In this document: positions 5,475 to 32,545 of the stretch, in pieces
How the letters are laid out: each line of letters opens with the position of its first letter
Position numbering within the stretch: position 1 is the stretch's first letter
From: Amycolatopsis sp. EV170708-02-1
GTDB taxonomy: Bacteria; Actinomycetota; Actinomycetes; Mycobacteriales; Pseudonocardiaceae
DNA: 64,000 nt
NCBI RefSeq assembly: GCF_022479115.1
Contig: NZ_CP092497.1
Span: 7,936,001-8,000,000, forward strand
Reading direction: 5' to 3'
Translations under genes and position numbers: made by a program
Notes under the pieces: model-generated
What the model was told of the DNA's origin: nothing
Databases searched by the model: none
What the model saw: only the letters and a program-made list of their open reading frames with translations

Positions 5475-6902
5475 TCACTGGGCGGCCAGCCATTTCGCGA
5501 CCCCGCCGACGGCGTCCTTGCAGCCGCCGCAGCCGGTCGTCGCGCGGGTCGCCCCGGCGAGGGCGGGGACGTCGGTGGCGCCGCCGCGCCACGCTTCGAC
5601 GAGCCGTCCCTTGGTCACCGCGTTGCAGCGGCAGATGACCGCCGACGCGGGCAGATCGGCCGGGCTCGCCGCCGATGGCGCCCCGGGCGGCAGGGATCGT
5701 CCTAAAAGGACAGCCAGCCGGTCTTCGGGTACCGGCGTACCCCGGTCGTAGAGCTGCGTGATCGTCGCGGCCGCGTCGGGCAGGCCGAGCAGGATCGCGC
5801 CGGCCACGCGGTTCTCGCGGATGACGAGCTTGCCGTAGCGGCAGCCCGCCGGGTCGCTGAAGGTGAGCACTTCGGCGGTCGGGTCGTCCGCGCCGGTCAT
5901 CGTCTCGCCGAGCGCGGTGAGGTCGATGCCGCGCGCCTTGAGCCGGGTCACCGCCTGGGTGCCGCGGTAGCGCGAGGCGGATTTCGCGCCGGTGACCAGA
6001 TCCGCGACGACGGCGGCCTGTTCCCACGCGGGCTGCACGAGACCGCCGAACGCGCCCGGATGCTTCGCGCAGTCGCCGATCGCGTGGATCCGGCCGTCGC
6101 TGGTGCGTAGCAGATCGTCGACGACGATGCCGCCTTCGACGGTCAGCCCGGCGTCCACGGCCAGTTTCGTCTCCGGCCGGACGCCGGTGGAGACGACGAT
6201 GAGATCGGCGGGCACATGCGTGCCGTCGTCGAGTTTGAGCCCGTCGCCGCTGACGTAACGCGCGGCCCCGACACCGAGCCGGAAGGCGACGCCGAGTTCT
6301 TCGAGTTTCCTGGTCAGCACTCGCGCCGATTCCGCGTCCAGCTGACGTTCCATGATGTGCGGCATCGGGTGCACGACGGTGACGAGGTTCCCGCGTCCGG
6401 CGAGGCCTCGCGCGGCCTCCAGGCCGAGCAACCCGCCGCCGAGGACGGCCACCGGCGCGCCCAGTTTGGCGGCGTCGAGAATGCGCGCGCAGTCGTCGAG
6501 GGTGCGGAACGCGACGACGTCCGGGCCGGGTTCGAGCCCTTCGACCGGCGGCATCCACGGGTTGGCGCCGGTGGCGAGCACGAGCGCGTCGTAGTCCACA
6601 GTGGACCCGTCGTCGAGGTGGATCCGCCGCGCGTCCCGGTCGATCGACGTCGCGGAGACACCCCGGCGCAGATCCGCCCGGGTACGGGACGGCCATTCGT
6701 CGTCGTGCAGCCGGACGGCCTCGGGCCGCATGGTGCCGGCGACCACCGACGAGAGCAGCACCCGGTTGTAGGCCGTGTGCTCCTCCGCGCCGACGACCGT
6801 GAGCCGCACCCGCTCGCCTTCGGGATCGCGGCGCTGGATCTCGTCCGCGAGCCGCGCGCCCGCCATCCCGTATCCGGCGATGACCACCGACCGGGGGCTC
6901 AC
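5475..6902 (-). CDS. FAD/NAD(P) flavoprotein with BFD [2Fe-2S] domain, nitrate reductase electron donor
   Basis: The 475-residue protein is a pyridine nucleotide-disulphide oxidoreductase: GYGMAGARLADEI at the N-terminus and VLGGGLLGLEAARGL in the middle. It ends in a BFD-like domain with C424, C426, C458 and C461. It resembles the NirB N-terminal half without the siroheme part, as in NasB/NasC-type subunits that pass electrons from NAD(P)H to assimilatory nitrate reductase. The GTG start overlaps the nasA stop by 4 bases, supporting that pairing. A rubredoxin-reductase-like role is possible but less likely here. Confidence 0.85.
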   Translation of the reverse strand: MSPRSVVIAGYGMAGARLADEIQRRDPEGERVRLTVVGAEEHTAYNRVLLSSVVAGTMRPEAVRLHDDEWPSRTRADLRRGVSATSIDRDARRIHLDDGSTVDYDALVLATGANPWMPPVEGLEPGPDVVAFRTLDDCARILDAAKLGAPVAVLGGGLLGLEAARGLAGRGNLVTVVHPMPHIMERQLDAESARVLTRKLEELGVAFRLGVGAARYVSGDGLKLDDGTHVPADLIVVSTGVRPETKLAVDAGLTVEGGIVVDDLLRTSDGRIHAIGDCAKHPGAFGGLVQPAWEQAAVVADLVTGAKSASRYRGTQAVTRLKARGIDLTALGETMTGADDPTAEVLTFSDPAGCRYGKLVIRENRVAGAILLGLPDAAATITQLYDRGTPVPEDRLAVLLGRSLPPGAPSAASPADLPASAVICRCNAVTKGRLVEAWRGGATDVPALAGATRATTGCGGCKDAVGGVAKWLAAQ

Positions 6903-8968
6903 GCGGCGGCCTCGGCCGGGGCGAGCGCGACCGCGCACACCTTGAACTCGGGCATCCGGCTCGTCGGGTCGAGCGCCGGGTTGGTCAGCAGGTTCGCCCG
7001 GCCCTCGCCGGGGAAGTGGAACGGCAGGAACACCAGGTCGGGGCGCAGCGACGCCACGCAGCGGACACGGGCGACGGTCTCCCCGCGGCGGGAACGCACG
7101 ACGGCGAGGTCGCCCTCGGCCAGTCCCGCGCGAGCAGCGGTGTCGGGATGAACTTCCACGAAGGCCTCCGCCACGACGTCGTTGAGTTCCTTGACCAGCC
7201 GGGTCTGCGCCCCGGACTGGTAGTGCTGCAGGACCCGGCCGGTGGTGGCCTGCAAGGGGAATTCGGCGTCGGGCACCTCGGCGGGGCCGACGTGGTCCAC
7301 CGGCACGAACCGCGCGCGGCCGTCCGGGTGGGCGAAGCGGTCGAGGAACATCCGCGGCGTGCCGGGATGCGATTCCGCCGGGACCGGCCAGTAGAGGGCC
7401 TCGCCGTCGCGGAGCCGGTCGTAGGTGATGCCCGAGTAGTCGGCGACGCCGCCCTTGGACGCCTGGCGGAGCTCGGTGAAGACGGTCTCGGCGTCCGTCG
7501 GGAACCTGCCGTCGGGCTGGCCGAACCGGCGGGCGAGCTCGGAAAGCACGTAGAGATCGGTCTTCGCGCCGGACGGCGGATCGATCGCCTTGCGCCGCAG
7601 GAGGATCCGACCTTCGAGGTTGGTCATCGTGCCGTCCTCCTCGGCCCACTGGGTGACCGGCAGGACGACGTCGGCCATCGCCGCCGTCTCCGAGAGGACG
7701 AGGTCCGAGACCACCAGGAAGTCCAAAGAGGACACCTTGTCCTGGATGTTCCCGGCGCCGGGCGCGGAAACGACGAGGTTGCTGCCGAACACCATGAGCG
7801 CGCTCGGCCCGTCTTCGGTGCCGAGCGCCTCCAGCAGCTCGACGGCCGAACGGCCCGGCCCCGGCAGGGATTCCGGCGCCACACCCCAGACCCCGGCGAC
7901 GTACTCGCGGGCCGCGGGGTCGTCGATCTTGCGGTAGCCGGGCAGCTGGTCGGCCTTCTGCCCGTGCTCGCGACCGCCTTGGCCGTTGCCCTGCCCGGTC
8001 AGGCAGCCGAAGCCCGATCCCTTGCGTCCGGGCAGGCCGAGGGCGAGCGAGAGATTGATCCAGGCGTTGACCATCGCGGTGCCGTTGGCGTGCTGTTCGG
8101 TGCCTCGCGCGGTGAGGACGTAGGCGTTGCGGGCCGCGGCGAGCTTGGCGGCGACGCGGCGCTGGTCCGCGGCCGAGACGCCGGTGATCTGCTCGACGCG
8201 CTCCGGCCACCAGGCCGCGACCGACCGCCACAGCTCCTCGAAACCGTTCGTGCGCGTGTCCACATAGGACTGGTCGAGCAGGCCGTCGGCGACGACGGCG
8301 TGCAGGATGCCTTGCGCGAGCGCGAGGTCGGTGCCCGGCGCGGGTTGCAGATGCAGTCCGGCCAGTTCGGCGGTCGGCGTCCGGCGCGGGTCGACGACGA
8401 TGAGGTCCGCGCCCCGCAGGTGCTGGGTGAACGGCGGCATCGTCTCGGCCGGGTTCGCGCCGATCAGCAGGACCGCGTCGGCGTCGGCGAGATCCGTGAC
8501 CGGGAACGGCATGCCGCGGTCGGCGCCGAACGCCTTGATCCCGGCGGCGGCCGCCGACGACATGCAGAACCGGCCGTTGTAGTCGATCTGCGAGGTGCCC
8601 AGCGCGATCCGCGCGAATTTCCCCAGCAGATACGCCTTCTCGTTGGTCAGCCCACCGCCGCCGAAGACGGCGACCGCGTCGGCGCCCTTGGCCGCGCGGA
8701 TCTCGGTGAGCCGCCTGGCGACGAGGTCGAGCGCCTGCGGCCAGCTCGCGGGCCGGAGTTCGCCGTCGACCCTGATCAGCGGTGTCGTCAGGCGGGACGG
8801 CGAGGTGAGCAGCTCCCCCGACGTCCAGCCCTTCTGGCAGAGGCCGCCGGCGTTGACCGGGAAGTCGCGCGGGGCGACCCGGGCGCCGTCGAGGCTCATC
8901 CCGCACTGCAGGGCGCAGTACGGGCAGTGCGTGTCCACCGCGGTCACGGTGGGGGCGGCGAGCGGCAC
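6899..8968 (-). CDS. nasA: Assimilatory nitrate reductase catalytic subunit
   Basis: The 689-residue molybdopterin oxidoreductase starts with a [4Fe-4S] site at C15, C18, C22 and C44, followed by the Mo-bisMGD core (for example NGRFCMSSAAAAGIKAFG and GANPAETMPPF) and a C-terminal dinucleotide-binding domain. It has no Tat signal, as expected of a cytoplasmic assimilatory enzyme. The GTG at 8968 is preferred because GGAGGAGG lies 5 bases upstream; the GTG at 8974 overlaps that site. It is the first gene of the nitrate/nitrite cluster and is divergent from padR. Confidence 0.93.
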   Translation of the reverse strand: MPLAAPTVTAVDTHCPYCALQCGMSLDGARVAPRDFPVNAGGLCQKGWTSGELLTSPSRLTTPLIRVDGELRPASWPQALDLVARRLTEIRAAKGADAVAVFGGGGLTNEKAYLLGKFARIALGTSQIDYNGRFCMSSAAAAGIKAFGADRGMPFPVTDLADADAVLLIGANPAETMPPFTQHLRGADLIVVDPRRTPTAELAGLHLQPAPGTDLALAQGILHAVVADGLLDQSYVDTRTNGFEELWRSVAAWWPERVEQITGVSAADQRRVAAKLAAARNAYVLTARGTEQHANGTAMVNAWINLSLALGLPGRKGSGFGCLTGQGNGQGGREHGQKADQLPGYRKIDDPAAREYVAGVWGVAPESLPGPGRSAVELLEALGTEDGPSALMVFGSNLVVSAPGAGNIQDKVSSLDFLVVSDLVLSETAAMADVVLPVTQWAEEDGTMTNLEGRILLRRKAIDPPSGAKTDLYVLSELARRFGQPDGRFPTDAETVFTELRQASKGGVADYSGITYDRLRDGEALYWPVPAESHPGTPRMFLDRFAHPDGRARFVPVDHVGPAEVPDAEFPLQATTGRVLQHYQSGAQTRLVKELNDVVAEAFVEVHPDTAARAGLAEGDLAVVRSRRGETVARVRCVASLRPDLVFLPFHFPGEGRANLLTNPALDPTSRMPEFKVCAVALAPAEAAA

Positions 8969-21956: not shown

Positions 21957-22493
21957 ATGCCCCATATCGCGCTCGACGAGAACCTTCCCGGCATCACCGG
22001 CTTGTTCGCCTATCGGCCGGAGACGGCGGCGCCGCTCGGGCAACTCGCCGAGGTCCTGCTTCGCGGCCCGAACAGCCTCAGCGTGGGAGAACGCGAACTG
22101 ATCGGCGCGGTCGTCTCACGCGGCAACGACTGCACGTTCTGCTCACGCAGCCATGCCGCCGTCGCCGCCGAAGCGCTCGAAGGAGGCATGCCGGTCGTGG
22201 AGGCGGCTTGGAAGGACGTCGACGGCGCGCCTGTGCCGGCGAAGGTGCGGGCGCTCCTGCACGTCGCGCTCGCCGTTCGCGAAAGCGGGAAGTCGGTGGG
22301 CGACGAGCTGATCGAGACCGCCCGCGCGGAGGGCGCGACGGACGTGGAAATCCACGACACGGTCCTGATCGCGGCCGCGTTCTGCATGTTCAACCGCTAC
22401 GTCGACGGGCTGGCCACGCTCGCCGTCGACGACCAGGACGCCTACCGGGAAGCCGGCGTGCGGCTCCTGGAGCACGGCTACACGAACCTCTGA
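21957..22493 (+). CDS. AhpD-like / carboxymuconolactone decarboxylase-family protein
   Basis: This 178-residue all-helical protein carries the AhpD CxxC motif (NDCTFCSRSH), so it is probably a peroxidase-related disulphide oxidoreductase and not a decarboxylase. The ATG at 21957 has GAGGAG 5 bases upstream; an in-frame start at 21846 would overlap the divergent amidohydrolase start. It converges on the hydrolase gene at 22569. Confidence 0.87.
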   Translation: MPHIALDENLPGITGLFAYRPETAAPLGQLAEVLLRGPNSLSVGERELIGAVVSRGNDCTFCSRSHAAVAAEALEGGMPVVEAAWKDVDGAPVPAKVRALLHVALAVRESGKSVGDELIETARAEGATDVEIHDTVLIAAAFCMFNRYVDGLATLAVDDQDAYREAGVRLLEHGYTNL

Positions 22494-22497
22494 CGGG

Positions 22498-22561
22498 AGC
22501 AAGGGACCTTTGCTACCACTTGTCTCAATGTCGAGAGAAGCGGTAGCAAAGGTCCCTTGCT
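22498..22561. terminator. Paired family B hairpins between convergent genes
   Basis: A plus-orientation copy (22498-22518) and a minus-orientation copy (22542-22561) of AGCAAGGGACCTTTGCTACC face each other. Each can fold alone, and together they form a larger hairpin with a 23-base loop. They fill the gap between the AhpD-like and hydrolase stop codons. Confidence 0.75.
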
Positions 22562-22568
22562 CCCCTTT

Positions 22569-23491
22569 TCAGACCCTCGCGGCGCGGCGGACGAGTGCCG
22601 CGATGCGGTCCGAAACCTCCTGAGCCCGTTCCTGCGGAAGCATGTGCCCCGCCCCGGGTAGCGCACGAATTCGGCTTCCGGCAGTTCGTCGGCGATGACC
22701 TTGGCGTGCGGCGGCGGACAGAGCCGGTCCCGCTCCCCCGCCAGCACGATCACCGGTTTGCCCTGAAGCGCGGCCAGCGTGACCCGGCAGTCGTGCCGCG
22801 AAATCGCGTCCTGGAATCCCGCGACGCTCGCCGGATGCGCGCACAGCAGCTGTTCGGCGACCGAGTCCACATCGGCCCGCTGAGGCCGCCGACCGAAGAC
22901 GAGCAGCCGCGCACCGGGCCGCACCACCGACAGCGGCAGCGGCAAGGCGTCCCGGCGGTTCTTCGCGAGCAGCTTCGCGAGCCTCCGTTCGAACCTCGCC
23001 GCGCCGCTGCCCGCGATCCCCGGCAGGCCGAGGGTGATCCGGTCCATCTCACCGGACGACGTGGCGACGAACGCGACCCCTGCGACGCGCCGGGCCACGA
23101 GATCGGGATGCCTGCGGGACAATTCCATGATCGTCATGCCGCCCATGGAGTGCCCGGCGAGCACGATCGGCCCGTTCGGGACACGATCCTGGATCAGCTC
23201 GGCGAGGTCGTCGGCGAGGGTCGCGATCGTGGCCGTCCCCGGTTTCGCCGGCGCGGAACCGCCGTGGCCGCGCAGGTCGTAGCGCAGGGTCCGGACGGAG
23301 TCGCCGAGCCGCGACACCACGCCGTCCCAGGTCCGGTGGTCCTGTGTCCAGCCGTGCACGAGCACCAGCGTGAGCTCGGAGTCGGCTGGCCCGCCCGGCT
23401 CGACGTGCAGGGCGGTGCCGTCACCGGTCACGAACCGATGCCGCCGCGACGGGTCCCACGAGACGGCGTCGCGCTGCTTGACGCTCCTCAT
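22569..23491 (-). pseudogene. Alpha/beta hydrolase gene with one-base frameshift
   Basis: The frame from ATG 23491 encodes a hydrolase (LVLVHGWTQDHRTW, nucleophile LAGHSMGGMT, acid LAGERDRLCPP) but departs from the family just before the catalytic histidine. The other frame then supplies the expected end (GAGHMLPQERAQEVSDRIA ... LVRRAARV) with a stop at 22569. One extra C in the C-run at 22652-22655 restores AEFVRYPGAGHMLPQE. As read, translation would continue to about 22478 without the catalytic His. The start overlaps the AurF-type stop (ATGA), so the two form an operon. Confidence 0.75.
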
Positions 23492-24396
23492 CGCTTCCCC
23501 GGCAGCAGGAAGGACTTGCGCCAGAAGTACATGCCCGGCTTGCCGACCAGCCCGGATTCCTGCAGGAACGGCATGATCTTCTCGCCCGCCCACTGGATGC
23601 TTTCGCGCCAGTGAGGGTTGTTCAGCGCGGCCTCGACGCCGTCGCGCGGACGGATGCCGACGGCCTTGTAGACGTTCGGGTTGATGAAGGCCCGGGTCAC
23701 GAAATACGAAATGAGCGCGATGATGAACTGCTGGTAGAGGATTTCCTTCTTCGACAGTTTCGCCATCCCGCGAGTCACCTCTTCGCGGGCGAAGGTGACG
23801 TGCCGGGCTTCTTCGAGCACGTGGATCCGGTTGACCATGCGCACCAGCGGCTGGATGTCCGGGTCGTTCATCTGCTCGCGCTGAAGACGGTCGAGGACCT
23901 CTTCGGCGACGAGGATCGCGCCGTAGCGCGCGGGACCGTAGCTGATGGTCGGCATCAGCTTCGCCAGCCGCCGCAACCACGGCACCGGCCCGTAGGACGG
24001 GCAGCCGATCCGCGAAGCCATCCGCGCGAACATCGTCGAATGACGGCATTCGTCCGCGATCTCGGTTAACGCGTACTGGGCGTGCGAACTGGTCGGGTCC
24101 TCTTCGTAGACCTCCTTGAGCAGCATCTGCATCAGGAGGATCTCGAACCACAGCCCCGTCGTGGCGACGCTCGCGACCTCGTGCTTGCCGAGTTCGATGC
24201 GCTGCTCTTCGGACAGCGAGTCCCACAACTTCGTGCCGTAGAGCGAAGAACGGTGTGCCGGGATGAAGCGCTTCCCGTCGACGAGCGGGGCGGTCCAGTC
24301 GATGTCGACGTCGGGATCGTAGAACTTGTTCGCGGAGGACTTGAGCAGCCGCTCGGCCGTCTTCTCCCGGTCTGTTTCCTTCAGCGCCCGCGTCAT
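23488..24396 (-). CDS. AurF-type diiron oxygenase
   Basis: This 302-residue helical protein has two E-x-x-R-H-type metal motifs, ADECRHSTMFA and LEEARHVTFAREE, plus upstream glutamates, typical of the AurF p-aminobenzoate N-oxygenase family. It probably uses two irons and O2 to oxidise a small substrate. The ATG at 24396 has GGGGTG 8 bases upstream; GTG 24405 is an alternative. The frameshifted hydrolase follows in the operon. Its promoter overlaps the left 62-bp repeat, and it was probably once divergent from the TetR gene at 30100. Confidence 0.82.
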   Translation of the reverse strand: MTRALKETDREKTAERLLKSSANKFYDPDVDIDWTAPLVDGKRFIPAHRSSLYGTKLWDSLSEEQRIELGKHEVASVATTGLWFEILLMQMLLKEVYEEDPTSSHAQYALTEIADECRHSTMFARMASRIGCPSYGPVPWLRRLAKLMPTISYGPARYGAILVAEEVLDRLQREQMNDPDIQPLVRMVNRIHVLEEARHVTFAREEVTRGMAKLSKKEILYQQFIIALISYFVTRAFINPNVYKAVGIRPRDGVEAALNNPHWRESIQWAGEKIMPFLQESGLVGKPGMYFWRKSFLLPGKR

Positions 24397-24413
24397 TGCC
24401 GACACACCCCTAT

Positions 24414-24475
24414 CTGTAACTCGTGGTAACAGTTACCTCCGGTAGCATGACTGGGGTGATCGAACGTGTCAAGCG
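24414..24475. repeat. Left direct repeat flanking the helicase-nuclease gene
   Basis: This 62-base stretch matches 30059-30119 in the same orientation at roughly four bases in five, with a perfect 20-base core at 24456-24475. It contains the operator-like GTAACAGTTAC (24426-24436) and a dead copy of the first seven codons of the TetR gene (VIERVKR). The helicase-nuclease stop codon (complement of TCA, 24469-24471) lies inside it. Confidence 0.8.
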
Positions 24476-27400
24476 TTACCGCGACTCTCCAAGTGGCCGT
24501 GACTTCGGTCCATCGCACCTGCACGAACCAGCCCCTCAACGACCCCTTCGAGCGCCGCGCGGATATCCGGGCCGACCCGCTGCCAGCCGAACAAGCGGGC
24601 GACGCTGCTCATCAGCTCGTCGTCCGAGATGGAATGCACCTCATCGACCAGTCGAGAGACAGCGAGCCGGAGCTCCTCACGCGGCAGATGCTTGACATCT
24701 CGCTGAGTCACCGGATCAGCTCCTGGGACCCGAACAGTGTTCATTTCCTTCGAACGCGCACGCAGAAAGCCCAGTCCATCCATCTCGAACCCGTCCCGGA
24801 CGACCTCGTCTACCGCAAGCCTGAAGGCCTCCTTGATCCTTGGACCCGATCGCTGGCCACCCCACGCTTCCCGAATGGTCCGAAGCACCCGGTCCTGATG
24901 CACCGGTCCTTCCGCCTGGACAACCGCCCTGATCAGGTCACGTAGGCGCCCGCGCGCTTCGGGCTGGTGCAGCTGCCAAGGCGAAGTCACCGCACCCAGC
25001 TCAACGGCGCGATATGGCACGACCCAGGCCGGCCGGGCATCGAAGTCGACTTCCTCATGCTCGACCTCGGGGACGGCAGGCAAAGCCGCCACCACCGCAT
25101 CGCCGGACTCTTCGCCGGCGAGAGCCGCCTCAATCGCCCGCCGCAGTCGAGCCTCCTGCCCTTGGCGATCCCGATACCAGGCGGTTCCCCAAATCCGATG
25201 GATCCGCCATCCGAGCCCTTCGAGCACGGACTGCCGCAACCGGTCCCGGTCGCGAGTGACCTTGGCCGAGTGATACATGGCCCCGTCACATTCCACACCC
25301 AGAACATAAGTACCGTCGGATTCGCCACCGCGGACACCCAGATCGATTCGATAGCCGGCGACACCGACCTGAGGAACCACGTCATATCCCCAGCTTCTGA
25401 TGGACCTGAGCACTTCTTCCTCAAAGGGGCTCTCGGCATCTCCTCCAGAGTCATCGAGCTCCAACGCCAGCGCGGGCACACCACGTAGCGCGAAGTCGAG
25501 ATAGCCGCGCAAATGTCGCACACCGTCCGCCGACGAATTGCCGACGAACTGACCAGGCGTAACCGAGCTGATGATTTCTACCCGTCGCTGCGCTCTCGTG
25601 ATGGCGACGTTCAGCCTCCGCCAGCCATCTTTTTTATTCAGCGGCCCCATATTGAGCGTGAACTTCCCATGCTCGTCCGGACCGTACCCGATGCTGAAGA
25701 TGATGATGTCCCGCTCATCACCTTGGACGTTTTCCAGACTCTTGACGAAGAACCCGTGGAGTCGATCGTCACCTGGCAGCTGAGCAAGTTCCGGGAATCG
25801 CTCCGCTTGCGCCTCCAGTTCGCGCTCGATCGCATCCTGCTGCGCGCCGGAGAAAGTGACCACACCGAGAGTTCGTCCGGGGTGATGACGACGATGATAA
25901 AGAACACGTTCTATGACCTTCTGCGCCTCCACAGGGTTGTCCCGCGCACCACCCCGCCGATAGACGCCGTCCACCTTGAACAGTTCTACGCCGACATCCG
26001 GGGCCTTCTCCGTTGCACCGGGGAAGGTCAGCAGCTTTCCATCGTAGAACCGATAATTCGAGTAGGTGATCAATGATTCATGCTGACTACGATAGTGCCA
26101 GCTCAACGGAAGCGACTTGAGCGCACCGGCGGCCTTGCAGAGATCGAGTAGCGACTCGAACTCGTCGACCTGATCCTCGTCATAGGTGTCGTCTTCGACC
26201 ATATCTGCGGTAGCGAAGAAGTTCGATGGCGGCAACTGCTTCTGATCACCGGCCACCACCAGTTGCCGACCCCGGTACACACAGTTGATCGCATCCGCCG
26301 GCCTCACCTGAGACGCCTCATCGAAGATCACGGCGTCGAACCGCAGCGCGGCTGGGAGGTACTGGGAAACCGCCAACGGGCTCATCATGAAGCACGGCTT
26401 CAGCAGCTGTGCCACGTTTCCAGCTTTGCCAAGCAGGTCCCGGATCGGCATATGCCGCCGCTGCTTCTGCGCCTCACGCTGCAGGATCGCGGCGGCCCCG
26501 AGATTCGAATTCGGCCTGCGCCCGGAACAGGAATTGATAACCGCAGCGGACGCGTTTGCGATCTGCGCCCGGTCGAGCTCCCCGAACTCCGCGACAAGAG
26601 CGTCTCGATCAGCTGCTCGCAGCGCACCCAACCGAACCGCATCCGTCTTCAGTACATCATCGGCCCACGATTCCGACAGCGCTCGCTCAACGATGGATCT
26701 GACTTGCCCCGCCTCCACCTGCCGCTCGACACAAAAGGAAACGACCGCCCCCAGCCCAGCTTCTGACAATTTTTCCCTGGCAGTCGCGTAGGCCGCCCAT
26801 TCGTCGATATCACCGACCGAATCCGCCAACTCGACCAAGAAGTGTCGGACGTACTCGAAGTCATCGTCGTTCAAAGATTCCGTAGCGACGCCTGCCTGGC
26901 GTCCGGTGAATCCTCCCGCGATCCTGGCGGCACATTTGGTCCACGCCTCCTGCCGCACACGGATGTCGGCCGACGTGAACGAGGTTCCGAGAACGGCTTC
27001 CGCAAGAGCAAGGCGCACCGAGCCACCCAGGTGTGCTCGAACTCTCTCCGCCCAGGCAAGCTCTTCGTTCATCGACTCCCAGTTCGTATCGACACCTCGA
27101 AAACCGGTTCCCAACAGCTGTCGATCTTCCTCGAGCCGAGCCTCGATCCGTTCTCGTAACGAGCGGACCTTGACGACCTGCCGTAACGCCCTGACCGCGA
27201 AAGGCACCGAAACCGGACGCCCGGCGGCGCCACCTACCCGGTCGACGACCTCGGTCACGATGTCGAGCAGATCAGCGACCTGCTCCACCCACTCGAGCAA
27301 CCTATCGATCGAGGTTCTCCGCAGCTGTTTGGTCTTGGGCCCGGCTATTACTCTCGCATCGTCCAGCCATGCCCTTGCCGCTTCTTCCAACCGCCGGGCG

Positions 27401-29928
27401 ACGACGGAGAGCTGGGGATCGGGAGCACCTTCTCTGGCCAGCTGACGAACAATCCGCTGCTCACCGATCTTCTCCCCAGCGAGGACGACTGCCTGCCTTG
27501 CGACTTCGATCGCGTTGGCGATTCGCGTGAAGTCCGCGTCCACACGCTGGTAGTAGTGACCGCCAAGTGTGTTGGCATGTCTGGCTTCCGCGGTCGAGAG
27601 ACGTTGCTCGGCCTCTTTCCAACTCACCGCGTCGGCAAGCCGGGACCTGACCTCCTCATCGACCCTGCCGAGCACCGTGCACTCCGCCAACAGCCGCTTG
27701 TCCTCGCGATACGCTCGCCGCAGCTTGCCCAGCCCTTTGTGCACTTTGGCGAACCGCGCGTTCAGACCCGCCAGATCCAGCGCAAGGGCTTCATCACGGA
27801 AGACATCGCGCAGCTCGTCCCTGCGCCGATGGAACTCACGGTGCAACTCGCCTAGCGTGTCGGCCGCCTGAGTCAGCGCGGCCTGCGCAGCCGGGTTGAG
27901 CCAGTCAGCCTCCGGACGGTTCGGCGAATCCGCTAGGGACCCGAGGGCTGCGAGCTCGACCGCACGATCGAGCGACAAACCTTCCTTCGGTAGTCCCAAT
28001 ATCTCTGCCACGTTCCGAGCGTCCGTCCCAAGGGAACCGAGGTCCCCCGAACTGGCACGGAGGAACCGCGCGGCCCCTCGGAGCTGATCGACATCTGCCT
28101 GCTCCGCCACGTTCCAGCGCGGTTCTCGCTCACTCAACGCGGTGAGTGCGCCCTCGAGCTCAGCGGAGTGATCCGGGTCGAGCCCGTCCGCCCCTGGACC
28201 GACCAGTGCGGTCAGGGTGGCCCTTGCATCCGCGTGTTCGGCGGTCAGCTTCGCCAGCTCATCCATCCGAGCCTTGACCGGCTTGAGATCGCGCCTGCTC
28301 AGCCAATCGGCCGGAATAGCGGGACGATCGTCTAGCAGGGTCATGAGCCCGAGCATGCGCTGCCCGTCGCGAGGGCCGGCCGTCCAACCGAGGCCGAGAT
28401 CCTCGTCGACCGCGCCGACCAAGCCCTCGAGAGCGTCCAATGACTGCCGCGCGTCATCGAGCATGCGGACGACTTCGCTGCGCCGAGACGCGGACATGGT
28501 CGTGTCGGCCAAGTCCCGCCAAAGGAAGTCATCACCTCGAACCACCGGCCCCCAGGAACGGCCGAGAGCCGCGGCGGTCTCGACAAGGCGGGTGAACTCA
28601 GACGGTGAGAGCGACGCTCCGAAGCCGACGGGGACGGGCGCCTGAGGCAACGAGGACAAACGTGCGATCGCGCCGAGTACCTGGTGCAGTGAGCGGCCAA
28701 GGGGTTTCCGGACCTCATTCATCGCCTGGGCGTACGAGGCCAGTTCCCCACGTCGCCGTTGCAGGTCCGCACGATCGGTAGCCGAGAACGACCCACTGGC
28801 GGTCGGCCGGAAAGCCAGCGCTCGCCCGAGTTCCGCCGCCACCGCTTTGCGGTTCGCGTCATGACTGTGCAGCTTCAGTGCGAAATCAGCGAGATTCGCT
28901 TTCCTCAGCCGGTCGTATACCACGTCCAGCGCCGCGGCTTTCTCGCTGACGAAAAGCACTGTTCTCCCCGAATGGAGCAGCTCTGCGATGATGTTGGTGA
29001 TCGTCTGACTCTTCCCACTGCCTGGCGGGCCGTCCATGACGAAACTGTGGCCGTCGCGAGCCGCGATCACGCAGCGACGCTGACTCGCATCCGCGTTCAT
29101 CACACTGACGAGTGTTTCCGGCTCGACGTACTGTTCCAGCTGTTCCTCGGGAATAGAGGGAAAATCGAAATCCCCCGCGCTCGGTGCATCCGGCCCCAAA
29201 GCGAGGACCTGAACCATCGGGTTCTCCACCAGCAGGTCCTCGTTCACCTGGAGGTCGCGATACATCGCCTCCTTATGGAAGGTGAAGGTCGTCAGTACCG
29301 CACGCTCAGCCACCGACCAGCCGTGACGTTTCCGGACTAGTCGCTCGACACTACGCATGATCCCGGCGATTCCGACCTCCTCGAACTCCTCCACGGTAGG
29401 GAGCGAGATCCCGAAGTCGGCTTGGAGTTTGACCGCGAGCGCGGGATTGAGCACCGGATCGTCATCAGTACGACGTAGCCTGAAGGGTTCTCGGAGATTT
29501 TCCCGGGATATCGTGACGGGGAGCAGGATGAGCGGACTGACCGCGACGGCGTCATCGTCATCGGACTCGGTCCAGCTCAGCATTCCCAGGCCGAGGTGCA
29601 GCACCCACAAGCCTTTGTCGTCGGACTCCTGCTTCGCCTTGCGCTCGAGCAGCTGCAATGCGCGAAGGATCTGCGCCCGCTGTTTACCGGCGATCACCAA
29701 CTCACCCGGCTTCGGCCGGGGCATCTCCTCTTCCTCGGCGGGCAAGCAGAAACTCCAGTGCCCGGAGCTGCCACGGTTGAGCCTCTCCAACAGTGCTTCA
29801 GGTCCGGGGGTAACCACTTCGAGGGAGGCTGTTTTTGTATGTTTGAAGTACAGGAGCCGGTTCGTGCGCGACATGTTGATGAGTTCATCGCGCTGCTTTT
29901 CCAACCAGGCGCGCACCCGCTTGTCCAT
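24469..29928 (-). CDS. Large SF1 helicase-nuclease fusion (DUF4011/COG1112 type), candidate defence protein
   Basis: The 1,819-residue protein has an N-terminal DUF4011-like domain (about 1-280), Walker A GPPGSGKSQT (300-309, K306), a long alpha-helical insertion (about 380-1090), Walker B VIFDEASQ (DE at 1203-1204), GDQKQLPPS from 1227, then LSWHYRSQHES, ENVQGDERDIIIFS and LNVAITRAQRR, all SF1/Upf1-like motifs. A Vsr/DUF559-like nuclease follows, with E1503, D1529, E1546 and D1548. Two similar C-terminal units of about 75 residues resemble DUF3320. ATG 29928 is chosen for its GGAGGGGG site. Its GC content is lower than its neighbours'. It probably acts on foreign DNA or RNA; this is inferred. 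Confidence 0.88.
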   Translation of the reverse strand: MDKRVRAWLEKQRDELINMSRTNRLLYFKHTKTASLEVVTPGPEALLERLNRGSSGHWSFCLPAEEEEMPRPKPGELVIAGKQRAQILRALQLLERKAKQESDDKGLWVLHLGLGMLSWTESDDDDAVAVSPLILLPVTISRENLREPFRLRRTDDDPVLNPALAVKLQADFGISLPTVEEFEEVGIAGIMRSVERLVRKRHGWSVAERAVLTTFTFHKEAMYRDLQVNEDLLVENPMVQVLALGPDAPSAGDFDFPSIPEEQLEQYVEPETLVSVMNADASQRRCVIAARDGHSFVMDGPPGSGKSQTITNIIAELLHSGRTVLFVSEKAAALDVVYDRLRKANLADFALKLHSHDANRKAVAAELGRALAFRPTASGSFSATDRADLQRRRGELASYAQAMNEVRKPLGRSLHQVLGAIARLSSLPQAPVPVGFGASLSPSEFTRLVETAAALGRSWGPVVRGDDFLWRDLADTTMSASRRSEVVRMLDDARQSLDALEGLVGAVDEDLGLGWTAGPRDGQRMLGLMTLLDDRPAIPADWLSRRDLKPVKARMDELAKLTAEHADARATLTALVGPGADGLDPDHSAELEGALTALSEREPRWNVAEQADVDQLRGAARFLRASSGDLGSLGTDARNVAEILGLPKEGLSLDRAVELAALGSLADSPNRPEADWLNPAAQAALTQAADTLGELHREFHRRRDELRDVFRDEALALDLAGLNARFAKVHKGLGKLRRAYREDKRLLAECTVLGRVDEEVRSRLADAVSWKEAEQRLSTAEARHANTLGGHYYQRVDADFTRIANAIEVARQAVVLAGEKIGEQRIVRQLAREGAPDPQLSVVARRLEEAARAWLDDARVIAGPKTKQLRRTSIDRLLEWVEQVADLLDIVTEVVDRVGGAAGRPVSVPFAVRALRQVVKVRSLRERIEARLEEDRQLLGTGFRGVDTNWESMNEELAWAERVRAHLGGSVRLALAEAVLGTSFTSADIRVRQEAWTKCAARIAGGFTGRQAGVATESLNDDDFEYVRHFLVELADSVGDIDEWAAYATAREKLSEAGLGAVVSFCVERQVEAGQVRSIVERALSESWADDVLKTDAVRLGALRAADRDALVAEFGELDRAQIANASAAVINSCSGRRPNSNLGAAAILQREAQKQRRHMPIRDLLGKAGNVAQLLKPCFMMSPLAVSQYLPAALRFDAVIFDEASQVRPADAINCVYRGRQLVVAGDQKQLPPSNFFATADMVEDDTYDEDQVDEFESLLDLCKAAGALKSLPLSWHYRSQHESLITYSNYRFYDGKLLTFPGATEKAPDVGVELFKVDGVYRRGGARDNPVEAQKVIERVLYHRRHHPGRTLGVVTFSGAQQDAIERELEAQAERFPELAQLPGDDRLHGFFVKSLENVQGDERDIIIFSIGYGPDEHGKFTLNMGPLNKKDGWRRLNVAITRAQRRVEIISSVTPGQFVGNSSADGVRHLRGYLDFALRGVPALALELDDSGGDAESPFEEEVLRSIRSWGYDVVPQVGVAGYRIDLGVRGGESDGTYVLGVECDGAMYHSAKVTRDRDRLRQSVLEGLGWRIHRIWGTAWYRDRQGQEARLRRAIEAALAGEESGDAVVAALPAVPEVEHEEVDFDARPAWVVPYRAVELGAVTSPWQLHQPEARGRLRDLIRAVVQAEGPVHQDRVLRTIREAWGGQRSGPRIKEAFRLAVDEVVRDGFEMDGLGFLRARSKEMNTVRVPGADPVTQRDVKHLPREELRLAVSRLVDEVHSISDDELMSSVARLFGWQRVGPDIRAALEGVVEGLVRAGAMDRSHGHLESRGNA

Positions 29929-30058
29929 ATTCCCCCTCCGGTCCCGTTGTGCCATAGTCGCCCTGACTGGATCATCAGACAACATCTGGAGACGACCTAT
30001 CCCACGTCGGCACTAATGCCGGAAGCGTTAACCGGGGTCATCAAAACGTTGCCACAAC

Positions 30059-30119
30059 CTGTTACTGCCAGTAACAGTTACTTCTGGTAGCATCGATCTG
30101 TGATCGAACGTGTCAAGCG
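30059..30119. repeat. Right direct repeat flanking the helicase-nuclease gene
   Basis: This is the counterpart of 24414-24475. The shared core GTGATCGAACGTGTCAAGCG (30100-30119) is here the real start of the TetR gene. Together the repeats bracket about 5.6 kb containing only the helicase-nuclease gene and its upstream region. Confidence 0.8.
30061..30081. promoter_or_regulatory. Probable TetR operator
   Basis: Two overlapping palindromes are present: GTTACTGCCAGTAAC (30061-30075) and GTAACAGTTAC (30071-30081). They end 18 bases upstream of the TetR GTG start. The second palindrome is kept exactly at 24426-24436 upstream of the AurF-type gene, which suggests one regulator for both promoters. 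Confidence 0.65.
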
Positions 30120-30858
30120 CAACAGCAAGCAGTCGAGCAAGCACCCCACGGCGGGTGAGGCCGACACGGGCGACGCCCGTCGTGACCGCTGGCGCAAGCA
30201 CCGGATCGCCCGCCGCGCGGAGTTCGTCGAGGCCGCCCTGCGCGCGCTCGACACCCACGGGCCGGATCTCGGCATGGAAGACGTCGCCGCCGAAGCGGGC
30301 GTCACGAAGCCAGTGCTGTACAGGCACTTCGACGACAAGGCGGATCTGTACGTCGCGCTCGGGCAGCGCGGTACGGAGATCCTCTTCCAGCGGCTGATCC
30401 CGGCCATCAACTCCGAGCTGGCCCCGGTCCCCCGGATCCGGATGGCGCTCGACTCCTTCTTCAGCGTCATCGAGGAGCACCCCAACCTGTACCGCTTGCT
30501 CGCGCGCGGCGGCCTGCAGGAGAAGGTGGTCGTCAAATCCGACGTCGTCGCCGAGGACAAGGAACTGATCGCCACCGCGCTGACCGCGCTGCTCGGCGAC
30601 TACATGCGGATGTTCAACATGGACTCCGGCGCCGCCGAACCGTGGGCGCACGGCATCGTCGGCATGGTGCAGAGCACCGGTGAATGGTGGCTGGACCGGC
30701 GTTCGATGGGCCGCGACAGTGTCGTCGAGTACCTGACGCAGATCATCTGGGCCGCGATCGACGGCCTCTCCCGGCAGCAGGGCATCGTCATCGACCCGAA
30801 CCTGCCGCTCGAAGAGAACAAGGTCGTCCAAATGCGGAAGGAATCGGAGGCACAGTGA
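30100..30858 (+). CDS. TetR-family regulator
   Basis: This 252-residue regulator has a basic 35-residue N-terminal tail, a helix-turn-helix (RRAEFVEAALRALDTHGPDL, then VAAEAGVTKPVLYRHFDDKADLY) and a C-terminal effector domain. The GTG start lies in the right repeat. It is coupled to DUF4873 by a 4-base overlap. It probably represses itself and the AurF/hydrolase operon, whose operator copy is now 5.6 kb away. Confidence 0.88.
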   Translation: MIERVKRNSKQSSKHPTAGEADTGDARRDRWRKHRIARRAEFVEAALRALDTHGPDLGMEDVAAEAGVTKPVLYRHFDDKADLYVALGQRGTEILFQRLIPAINSELAPVPRIRMALDSFFSVIEEHPNLYRLLARGGLQEKVVVKSDVVAEDKELIATALTALLGDYMRMFNMDSGAAEPWAHGIVGMVQSTGEWWLDRRSMGRDSVVEYLTQIIWAAIDGLSRQQGIVIDPNLPLEENKVVQMRKESEAQ

Positions 30859-31181
30859 GCGAGCACGACGAAGACGGTTACGCCGGCGAAGCGGTCCTCG
30901 TGATCGACGGGACCGAGATCGCGACCACGGTCGACCTGCGGGGCTACTTCCAGCCCATCGACGGGTACTACCGCTGGTACGGCCGCGTCGCCGCCAACGA
31001 GCAGGTGTCCGCGGCCGCGGGCGGCAAGAAGACCGCCGTCGAGATCCGCGCGGGCGAGTACAGCGCGAAGGGCGAACTCTCCGACCCGGACCCGTGGGAC
31101 CGCTACCGCATCATGGGCACCAGCACGCCGCCCTTCCACGTGCCGACCAGCCTCGAAGAGCTGAACGAACTCAACGCCTGA
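30855..31181 (+). CDS. DUF4873 protein
   Basis: This 108-residue protein matches the DUF4873 family (GYAGEAVLVIDGTEIATTVDL, then GYFQPIDGYYRWYGRV). The domain is small, beta-rich and of unknown function; it is often found next to or fused with oxygenases, which fits the AurF-type gene nearby. The GTG start overlaps the TetR stop and has GGAGG upstream. Confidence 0.8.
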   Translation: MSEHDEDGYAGEAVLVIDGTEIATTVDLRGYFQPIDGYYRWYGRVAANEQVSAAAGGKKTAVEIRAGEYSAKGELSDPDPWDRYRIMGTSTPPFHVPTSLEELNELNA

Positions 31182-31190
31182 CCCCAAGCG

Positions 31191-31239
31191 GCTGAAGGGC
31201 GCTTTCCCCGCATCTCATGCGGGGAAAGCGCCCTTCAGC
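31191..31239. terminator. Family D hairpin, perfect 23-bp stem
   Basis: Arms 31191-31213 and 31217-31239 are exact complements around a 3-base loop. A partial second copy follows to about 31260. It lies between convergent ends (DUF4873 and the acyltransferase). No U-tract follows. Confidence 0.75.
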
Positions 31240-31264
31240 GCGTAAGACGAGGGGAAAGTCCCCT

Positions 31265-32545
31265 TCAGCCCCGCCGCTGAGCGGGCACCCGGGCACCGGG
31301 CACCAGGTACTTCGGCCAGCTCGACAGCTTGTTCATCGCCCATTCCAGCGGCCCGCGCCCGATGAACTTCCGCCACAGCACCGCGGCGGTCAGCGCCACC
31401 ACCGAGAACTCGACGAAGTGCAGCACGCTGAAGATCGAATCGCCGTCGCTTTCGTCCCACAGCAGCGCGATCGCCACGAAATGCAGCACGTACGCGCTCA
31501 GCACCCGCCCGCCCAGATCCGAAAGCGGGCGCAGCGCGCGCTCGAACTTCGGCATCAGCAGCTGGCAGCCACCGATCACCGCCGCCGCGATCCCGATCGA
31601 GATCAGCAGGTCGAACGGCGTGTACGAGGTACCCGTCGGCAGCAGTTCCCAGGCCCAGCTGGTGGTCGGCGGGGTGCCGTGGATCCAGGTCTGGTGCAGC
31701 CGCAGGAATTCCGGCGGCGTCATGCCCATCTGCGCCGCGGCCGGCTCCAGCGAGCGGTAGATCGCCTGCATGCCACCGAGCGGTCCGGTCGCGAGCCACG
31801 ACACGAAGTACCCGCCCACGGCGAGGGCCGAACCGCCGAAGAACAGCCGGCGGCACACGCTGCGCGAAGTCAGGTCCATCCGCCCGATCGCCATCCCGGC
31901 GAACACGTACGCCATCAGCGTCAACGCGGGGAACGTGCCGGTCAGGACGAGAACGGTCGCGGCCTTCAGCAGCCCGGTCGAGGTGACGTCGTCCGCGGTC
32001 AGGTCCGGCGCGAAGAAGAGCAGGTCACGGGGAAGCAGCTGCGCCCTGATCAGATGTGAGAGCAGCGGGCCCGCCACGGCGACGACGACCGCCGCGATCG
32101 CGAGCGCCTTCGCGCCCGCTCGCAGCCACGGGATCGCGAAGAGGAAACAAGCCCCGTAATAGGCCAGGATCACCATGTAGCCGGTCTCGAGGCTGGTCAG
32201 CCACAGTCCCAGCGCCACCAGAAGCGGGGCACGGGTCGCCAGTTTGAGCGCGACACGGGTCCGGTCGCGGCCCTCTTTGGGGCGGCGTCCGCCGGACATC
32301 AGCGCGATCGAGACCCCGGCCAGCACCGCGAACAACGCCGCGGAGTGGCCTTCGAACGGTTTGAACAGCACCCCGACGCCGCCTTTGGCCGGATCGGGGC
32401 CGACATGCACCGCGTACATGCCGAGAACGGCCAGGCCGCGGGCGACGTCGATACCGGTCAGCCGCCCAGCGACCCGTTTGCCTTGTTCGGGAACAGTGCG
32501 CACGCCGCCGAGCAGCGCGCGGTCCATCACAGTGACGCCGTCCAC
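31265..32545 (-). CDS. Multi-pass membrane protein, DUF1624/DUF418-like acyltransferase family
   Basis: The 426-residue protein has about ten membrane helices and begins with GRLTGIDVARGLAVLGMYAVHV, the signature of the heparan-alpha-glucosaminide acetyltransferase/DUF418 group. A conserved histidine lies in VGPDPAKGG..FKPFEGHSAALFAV. It may transfer an acyl group to a cell-surface or small molecule, but the substrate is unknown. The start is uncertain: GTG 32545 or ATG 32527, neither with a clear ribosome-binding site. The 114 bases upstream, before DUF3107, contain no gene. Confidence 0.8.
   Translation of the reverse strand: MDGVTVMDRALLGGVRTVPEQGKRVAGRLTGIDVARGLAVLGMYAVHVGPDPAKGGVGVLFKPFEGHSAALFAVLAGVSIALMSGGRRPKEGRDRTRVALKLATRAPLLVALGLWLTSLETGYMVILAYYGACFLFAIPWLRAGAKALAIAAVVVAVAGPLLSHLIRAQLLPRDLLFFAPDLTADDVTSTGLLKAATVLVLTGTFPALTLMAYVFAGMAIGRMDLTSRSVCRRLFFGGSALAVGGYFVSWLATGPLGGMQAIYRSLEPAAAQMGMTPPEFLRLHQTWIHGTPPTTSWAWELLPTGTSYTPFDLLISIGIAAAVIGGCQLLMPKFERALRPLSDLGGRVLSAYVLHFVAIALLWDESDGDSIFSVLHFVEFSVVALTAAVLWRKFIGRGPLEWAMNKLSSWPKYLVPGARVPAQRRG

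Follow-up and report, generated by a model that had tools for sequence, protein, structure and literature searches.

A single helicase-nuclease gene inserted between a native and a diverged copy of the AurF-TetR promoter in an Amycolatopsis chromosome

The window (the whole stretch of DNA analyzed here, 64,000 nucleotides of the chromosome of Amycolatopsis sp. EV170708-02-1) contains an AurF-type gene (PF11583, E 1.5e-108; 23488-24405, minus strand), which shows 97% nucleotide identity to its nearest relatives, and an intact gene for a TetR-family regulator (30100-30858, plus strand), whose protein is 100% identical to that of genome G020. Between them lies a gene for a helicase-nuclease of 1819 amino acids (24469-29928, minus strand), the only long gene between two direct repeats at 24414-24475 and 30059-30119. 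The repeats are identical in 49 of 62 aligned columns (79%), and their best local score is 62; none of 20 shuffles scored above 34, and the inverted comparison gave 28. The left repeat is a promoter copy with the operator-like motif GTAACAGTTAC (24426-24436) and the first TetR codons. The right repeat comprises a diverged promoter copy (30059-30099, hereafter P'), which retains GTAACAGTTAC (30071-30081) and now precedes TetR, and the first TetR codons. Both repeats end in the same 20-bp core, GTGATCGAACGTGTCAAGCG, which on the plus strand corresponds, on the left (24456-24475), to the former GTG start of TetR with its initial codons and, on the right (30100-30119), to the start of the intact TetR gene. 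A further extension of the right copy toward an AurF start codon (GTCAT, with a like spacing of 17 nt) matches at 9/23 positions, a level reached by 13% of insert windows and not significant. No tRNA was found in the window and no Rfam family matched at gathering score in 22000-32500. An earlier note on this DNA had reported the two direct repeats, the operator and first TetR codons in each, the identity of the 20-base core, and the absence of a transposase, an integrase and a tRNA; all of these observations hold, the insert being filled by the helicase gene. With one mismatch allowed, GTAACNGTTAC occurs nowhere else in the window beyond the two repeats, and the operator-promoter motif GTAACAGTTACNNNNGGTA has exactly two sites in the 9.66-Mb genome (control matches, 0). 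Thus, it is not a widespread operator, and the reading of the repeats as such, which the earlier note had named as one that would overturn its interpretation, is rejected. Inverted repeats at 22495-22564 (32 nt, 94%) and 31191-31239 (23 nt, 100%) are terminator-like and lie between convergent genes.

The same site was compared among 80 genomes of the genus, this one included. The best TetR hit was recovered in 80/80 and that of AurF in 79/80 (congener G073 gave no AurF hit at E <= 1e-60), and the two genes are divergent and adjacent on one contig in 78 of the 79 congeners, separated by 53-125 bp (median 58), versus 5,697 bp in the present genome. When the right copy was used as a DNA query, exactly one promoter match was obtained in 77/79 congeners (G004 and G032 gave none at the threshold) and two in this genome. 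Across the 390 genomes of the family, with at most two candidates scored per genome, 111 match the promoter query, with two matches here and one in each of the other 110; 33 of the matching genomes belong to other genera, and AurF and TetR are adjacent at all 20 of the loci examined among these. Base-by-base alignment of 29 empty sites with both repeat copies, together with the adjacency in 78 congeners, supplies the comparison of relatives that the earlier note had proposed, and agrees with its view that AurF and a divergent TetR gene ancestrally shared a single promoter. The contrary outcome, in which all relatives would carry the gene and both repeats, did not occur, because no congener contains a match to the helicase gene above 41% identity. 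A second AurF-type gene, approximately 76% identical to the one here, is present in three congeners (G014:C1:6245888, G043:C2:92326, and G034:C7:268690).

Comparison with the empty sites defines an inserted stretch without counterpart at the AurF-TetR site of relatives (24476-30058), which P' follows at 30059, and both of its joints fall at the identical core, that is, at the first seven TetR codons. At the left joint, the bases after the core are TTACCGC (the final helicase codons read in antisense), whereas the empty sites of the clade continue with CAACAGC of TetR; at the right joint, the core is followed by normal TetR sequence and the TetR frame is intact. The helicase stop codon (TGA, 24469-24471, minus strand) and the last alanine codon both lie inside the core. 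Thus, about 5.6 kb with one helicase-nuclease gene, and then a diverged promoter copy, have been inserted at TetR codon 7. The first 83 nt of TetR are identical to those of the nearest empty-site relative (L015), and no foreign tract is therefore visible beyond the core. Upstream of the helicase gene is a region of its own (29929-30058, minus strand) with a ribosome-binding-like stretch, GGAGGGGG. As a by-product, the old TetR start now opens a 79-codon fusion frame (24456-24695, plus strand) that runs antisense into the 3' end of the helicase gene; no function is expected of it, and it could in principle oppose helicase expression. The 8-mer AAGCGTTA stands at both ends of the insert (24471-24478 and 30023-30030), its sole two occurrences in the 64 kb.

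The two promoter copies differ in their relationship to the empty sites. The left copy shows 1/42 differences from L015 and is, on this comparison, native. The right copy shows 12/42, one of them a deletion of a single base between the GTG and the -10-like element TAGCAT. At four-fold sites, AurF and TetR diverge from the nearest relative in 25/293 positions (8.5%), so that drift since the split predicts approximately 3.6 differences at most; the probability of 12 or more is 3.4e-4 at 8.5%, and 1.4e-5 at 6% per site, the value set beforehand. Drift of the right copy in situ is disfavored by these figures, and the right copy most likely arrived together with the insert. The proposals of the earlier note that the insert carried its own diverged promoter, and that the repeats are not a fresh target-site duplication, are both supported by the same counts. 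The best DNA match to P' among the 390 family genomes is in congener G059 (87% over 67 nt); for the 36-mer of P', the best match is 32/36 in other genera (L135, L137, and L138) and 31/36 within the genus (L126, which is G059). These values leave P' with no close match, and hence no evident donor, in the 390 family genomes; P' was found in neither plasmids nor phages, and the left copy was likewise absent from plasmids. Base composition was dropped as a sign of foreign origin, since a similarly low GC content is found in the native AurF gene (0.636) and in the insert (0.627; TetR 0.669, window 0.681). A scan for sigma-70 patterns found none. P' retains GTAACAGTTAC and the -10-like element, and TetR should therefore still be produced and still bind the operator-like motif.

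The inserted gene encodes DUF4011, an SF1 helicase (AAA_11/AAA_12), an MTES_1575 endonuclease and DUF3320, as judged from Pfam matches; the listed open reading frame begins at 29985, whereas the database protein and the two closest homologs begin at its codon 20. It is a candidate for the PADLOC family PDC-S37, which has the same DUF4011 - SF1 helicase - MTES_1575 nuclease - DUF3320 architecture and matches strongly (1283.5 bits; best-matching stretch 931-1833, against positions 645-1545 of 1550 in the profile), whereas the PADLOC model Hhe matches with 570.3 bits, under half of that score. Sequence matches in the PDB are to the distant SF1-type helicases SMUBP-2, SEN1 and DNA2. In an alignment of 12 sequences, the Walker-A stretch is GPPGSGKSQ in 11 and GPPGTGKSQ in one, and all 12 share the nuclease stretch ECDGAMYHS. 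The putative helicase-nuclease is possibly a stand-alone anti-phage protein. The term PDC-S37 is absent from the literature searched; a DUF4011 gene has been used, in the part of the source that treats it, as the right-flank marker of a defence hotspot in Pseudomonas aeruginosa.

Homologs of the gene occur in other genomes. In 25 of the 79 congeners, with five candidates scored per genome, the helicase query matches part of a protein with at most 41% identity. The closest homologs, P0002 and P0003 (Amycolatopsis sp. NPDC051071), are 86% and 79% identical, respectively, and both end in ..NA-stop, the same two last residues as in the helicase here. This shared end would fit the same core joint, and plain homology is another possible explanation; at 79-86% identity, it is weak evidence. 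A query with the C-terminal third retrieved 4 of the 389 other family genomes at E <= 1e-130, none of them a congener, and the best flanking repeat of each of these four scores within its shuffles. The best of them, G091, is 66% identical over the C-terminal third and carries the gene elsewhere in its genome, its own AurF-TetR site being empty. This G091 gene (the 54% homolog at L160:4951-15847) lies beside a McrBC pair, one gene matching AAA_5 and the other the McrBC family. Matches to the gene occur in 324 plasmid records, all below 60% identity and none covering 80%; phages yielded one partial match, and viral contigs no confirmed match. The neighbors of relatives were surveyed at 24 chosen loci of 80, where a simple coding score yielded 88 flanking proteins, of which 61 (22 loci) were scanned. 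Single PADLOC models match no more than 6 of these 61, among them ZacC (6), DpdE (6), DrmD (5), and DrmA (4), counts in which the models overlap and general helicases cross-match. One flanking protein matches BREX BrxC/BrxD, and several neighbors are ordinary metabolic enzymes, e.g., phosphoglucose isomerase and malate synthase. Together with the McrBC-family neighbor, these matches suggest that some relatives reside in apparent defence islands and others beside ordinary genes, as here.

How could a gene without any mobility enzyme have come to lie between two copies of a host promoter? It is probable, judging from the position of the joints and the divergence of P', that foreign DNA consisting of the gene and P' recombined into the chromosome through the 20-bp core and left one promoter copy on each side. 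P' and the conserved TetR start would already have been part of the incoming DNA. A feasible model is a single crossover in the core between the chromosome and a circle containing the gene, P' and the core, which would place the host promoter and the core on the left, and P', the core and TetR on the right. Alternatively, a donor chromosome in which the gene already lay between two promoter copies could have given the same product. The helicase would then depend for expression on its own upstream region or on the leftward side of P'. Such an insertion should be harmless, because AurF retains the native promoter and TetR is supplied with P', including the operator-like motif. Counting against recombination through the core, a perfect stretch of 20 bp is short for ordinary homologous recombination. 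The filled site is known from one strain, and neither a donor nor a circle was observed.

Homology-facilitated illegitimate recombination, in which a linear donor (gene - P' - TetR') would be joined by homology at its TetR end and illegitimately at the other, is a rather unlikely alternative. It is a known process (PMC3240628, PMC2884548) and would account for a foreign P' beside a native TetR; the 8-mer shared by the two insert ends (at 24471 and 30023, unique in 64 kb) could also be read in its favor. However, 728 of 18590 random pairs of positions (3.9%) share an 8-mer likewise, and the microhomology is therefore weak evidence; moreover, the illegitimate joint would have to hit by chance the same core as the homologous joint. 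It is quite improbable that the insertion took place with long target duplication in this lineage, i.e., that insertion produced a second copy of the target and that the right copy then diverged rapidly. The anatomy fits, with one promoter in relatives and two around the insert, and insertions of this kind have been described for restriction-modification genes, according to the passages concerned (PMC3874152, PMC3031569, PMC1643837); however, the excess of changes in the right copy over the left and over the drift expected from four-fold sites (P = 3.4e-4) would then require strong positive selection. Least probable of all is site-specific integration by an integrase acting in trans with the core as attachment site, since, despite the short identical core, the substitution of element sequence for the promoter of the host gene and the real analogues in HK022 and SXT (in the relevant parts of PMC6814406 and PMC4344509), the helicase gene leaves no room for an integrase in the insert, the AurF-TetR site holds no insert in 78 of 79 congeners, neither promoter copy was found in plasmids nor P' in phages, and the core 17-mer gives two matches in viral contigs, neither with an adjoining promoter motif.

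If recombination of foreign DNA through the core is taken as the starting point, it is tempting to speculate on target-addressed cassettes. A defence gene captured within a pair of copies of a conserved host promoter might excise as a circle that retains one of them, and homology alone might then guide the circle into the orthologous site in a different species, the carried promoter serving as both address label and repair patch for the interrupted gene. This extension is doubtful. P0002 and P0003 would perhaps be further copies at the same site, and the flanking repeats found around three of 76 relatives would perhaps be further cases. These repeats come from a survey of 80 loci, of which four had too little flank, leaving 76 testable. 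Direct repeats scoring at least 45 surround 3/76 relatives (L058, L078, and L105) versus 0/131 control pairs; when full 1-kb flanks are required, the figures are 1/71 versus 0/131 at a score of 45, and 1/71 versus 2/131 at a score of 40. By the last comparison, the wider repeat pattern is weak, and it is regarded as a lead only. In L058 (Streptomyces sp. SM1), identical direct repeats of 784 bp (1-784 and 6802-7585) lie on either side of the helicase relative, at the very ends of the contig, which may reflect a circular contig, an effect of assembly or a target that is truly duplicated; in G810, another Streptomyces genome, the module forms a contiguous stretch. In L078 (Streptomyces boncukensis), direct repeats at 545-689 and 6096-6238, 71% identical, flank the helicase relative; they resemble a tRNA 3' end by eye only, and ARAGORN at its default setting finds no tRNA in them. 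In L105 (6992-13190, Streptomyces sp. PR69), a peptidase-like gene has its 3' end on one side of the helicase relative, and a diverged copy of that end, approximately 64 nt long, stands on the other; the interval also contains two small genes that by eye resemble a toxin-antitoxin pair but have no Pfam match. The left copy is similar to the 3'-terminal part of the adjoining peptidase-like gene, which lies within a repeat-type domain (Flg_new_2), and the resemblance may therefore be domain kinship; the best other homolog is 37% identical.

The locus offers a clean case in which a lone defence-type gene without a mobility enzyme could enter a chromosome without cost, a foreign promoter copy repairing the gene into which the insert lands. 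With sharp joints and with 78 relatives that have the empty site, the mechanism can be put to the test, and diverged copies of a host promoter around one gene provide a signature by which other unrecognized insertions may be sought. The literature searched, as judged by title and abstract, contains no single-gene insertion between diverged, foreign repeats. In terms of integrase-type genomic islands, the integrase gene is absent here, and a short identical core that restores the target gene is present. Among such elements, SXT/R391 gives prfC a new promoter and start. As described in the pertinent passages, its integration is in the 5' end of a gene, as here, but it is conjugative and encodes an integrase, unlike the present insert (PMC4344509), and measures about 100 kb versus about 5.6 kb (PMC2654960). 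Similarly, the HK022 prophage lies between torS and torT, in a short intergenic region between divergent genes with a common repressor site, where cis-acting sequences of the element replace those of the host; there, in the account given by the part of the source concerned, the insert is a prophage and regulation is altered, whereas both sides of the present insert retain the operator-like motif (PMC6814406). The nearest known phenomenon is the insertion of restriction-modification genes with long target duplication (Nobusato et al., 2000, cited in PMC3874152, PMC3031569, PMC1643837), in which, as far as the citing passages report, the direct copies are in the order of 100 bp and the genes move without a link to a mobile element. 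As here, the target is single in relatives and present in two copies around an insert that contains no transposase or integrase. By contrast, an origin of both copies from the recipient target is not what the counts for the right (12/42) and left (1/42) copies indicate: the copy there is made from the target, whereas one copy here is foreign-like and 79% identical to the other, and the cargo there is a restriction-modification pair, whereas here it is a helicase-nuclease.
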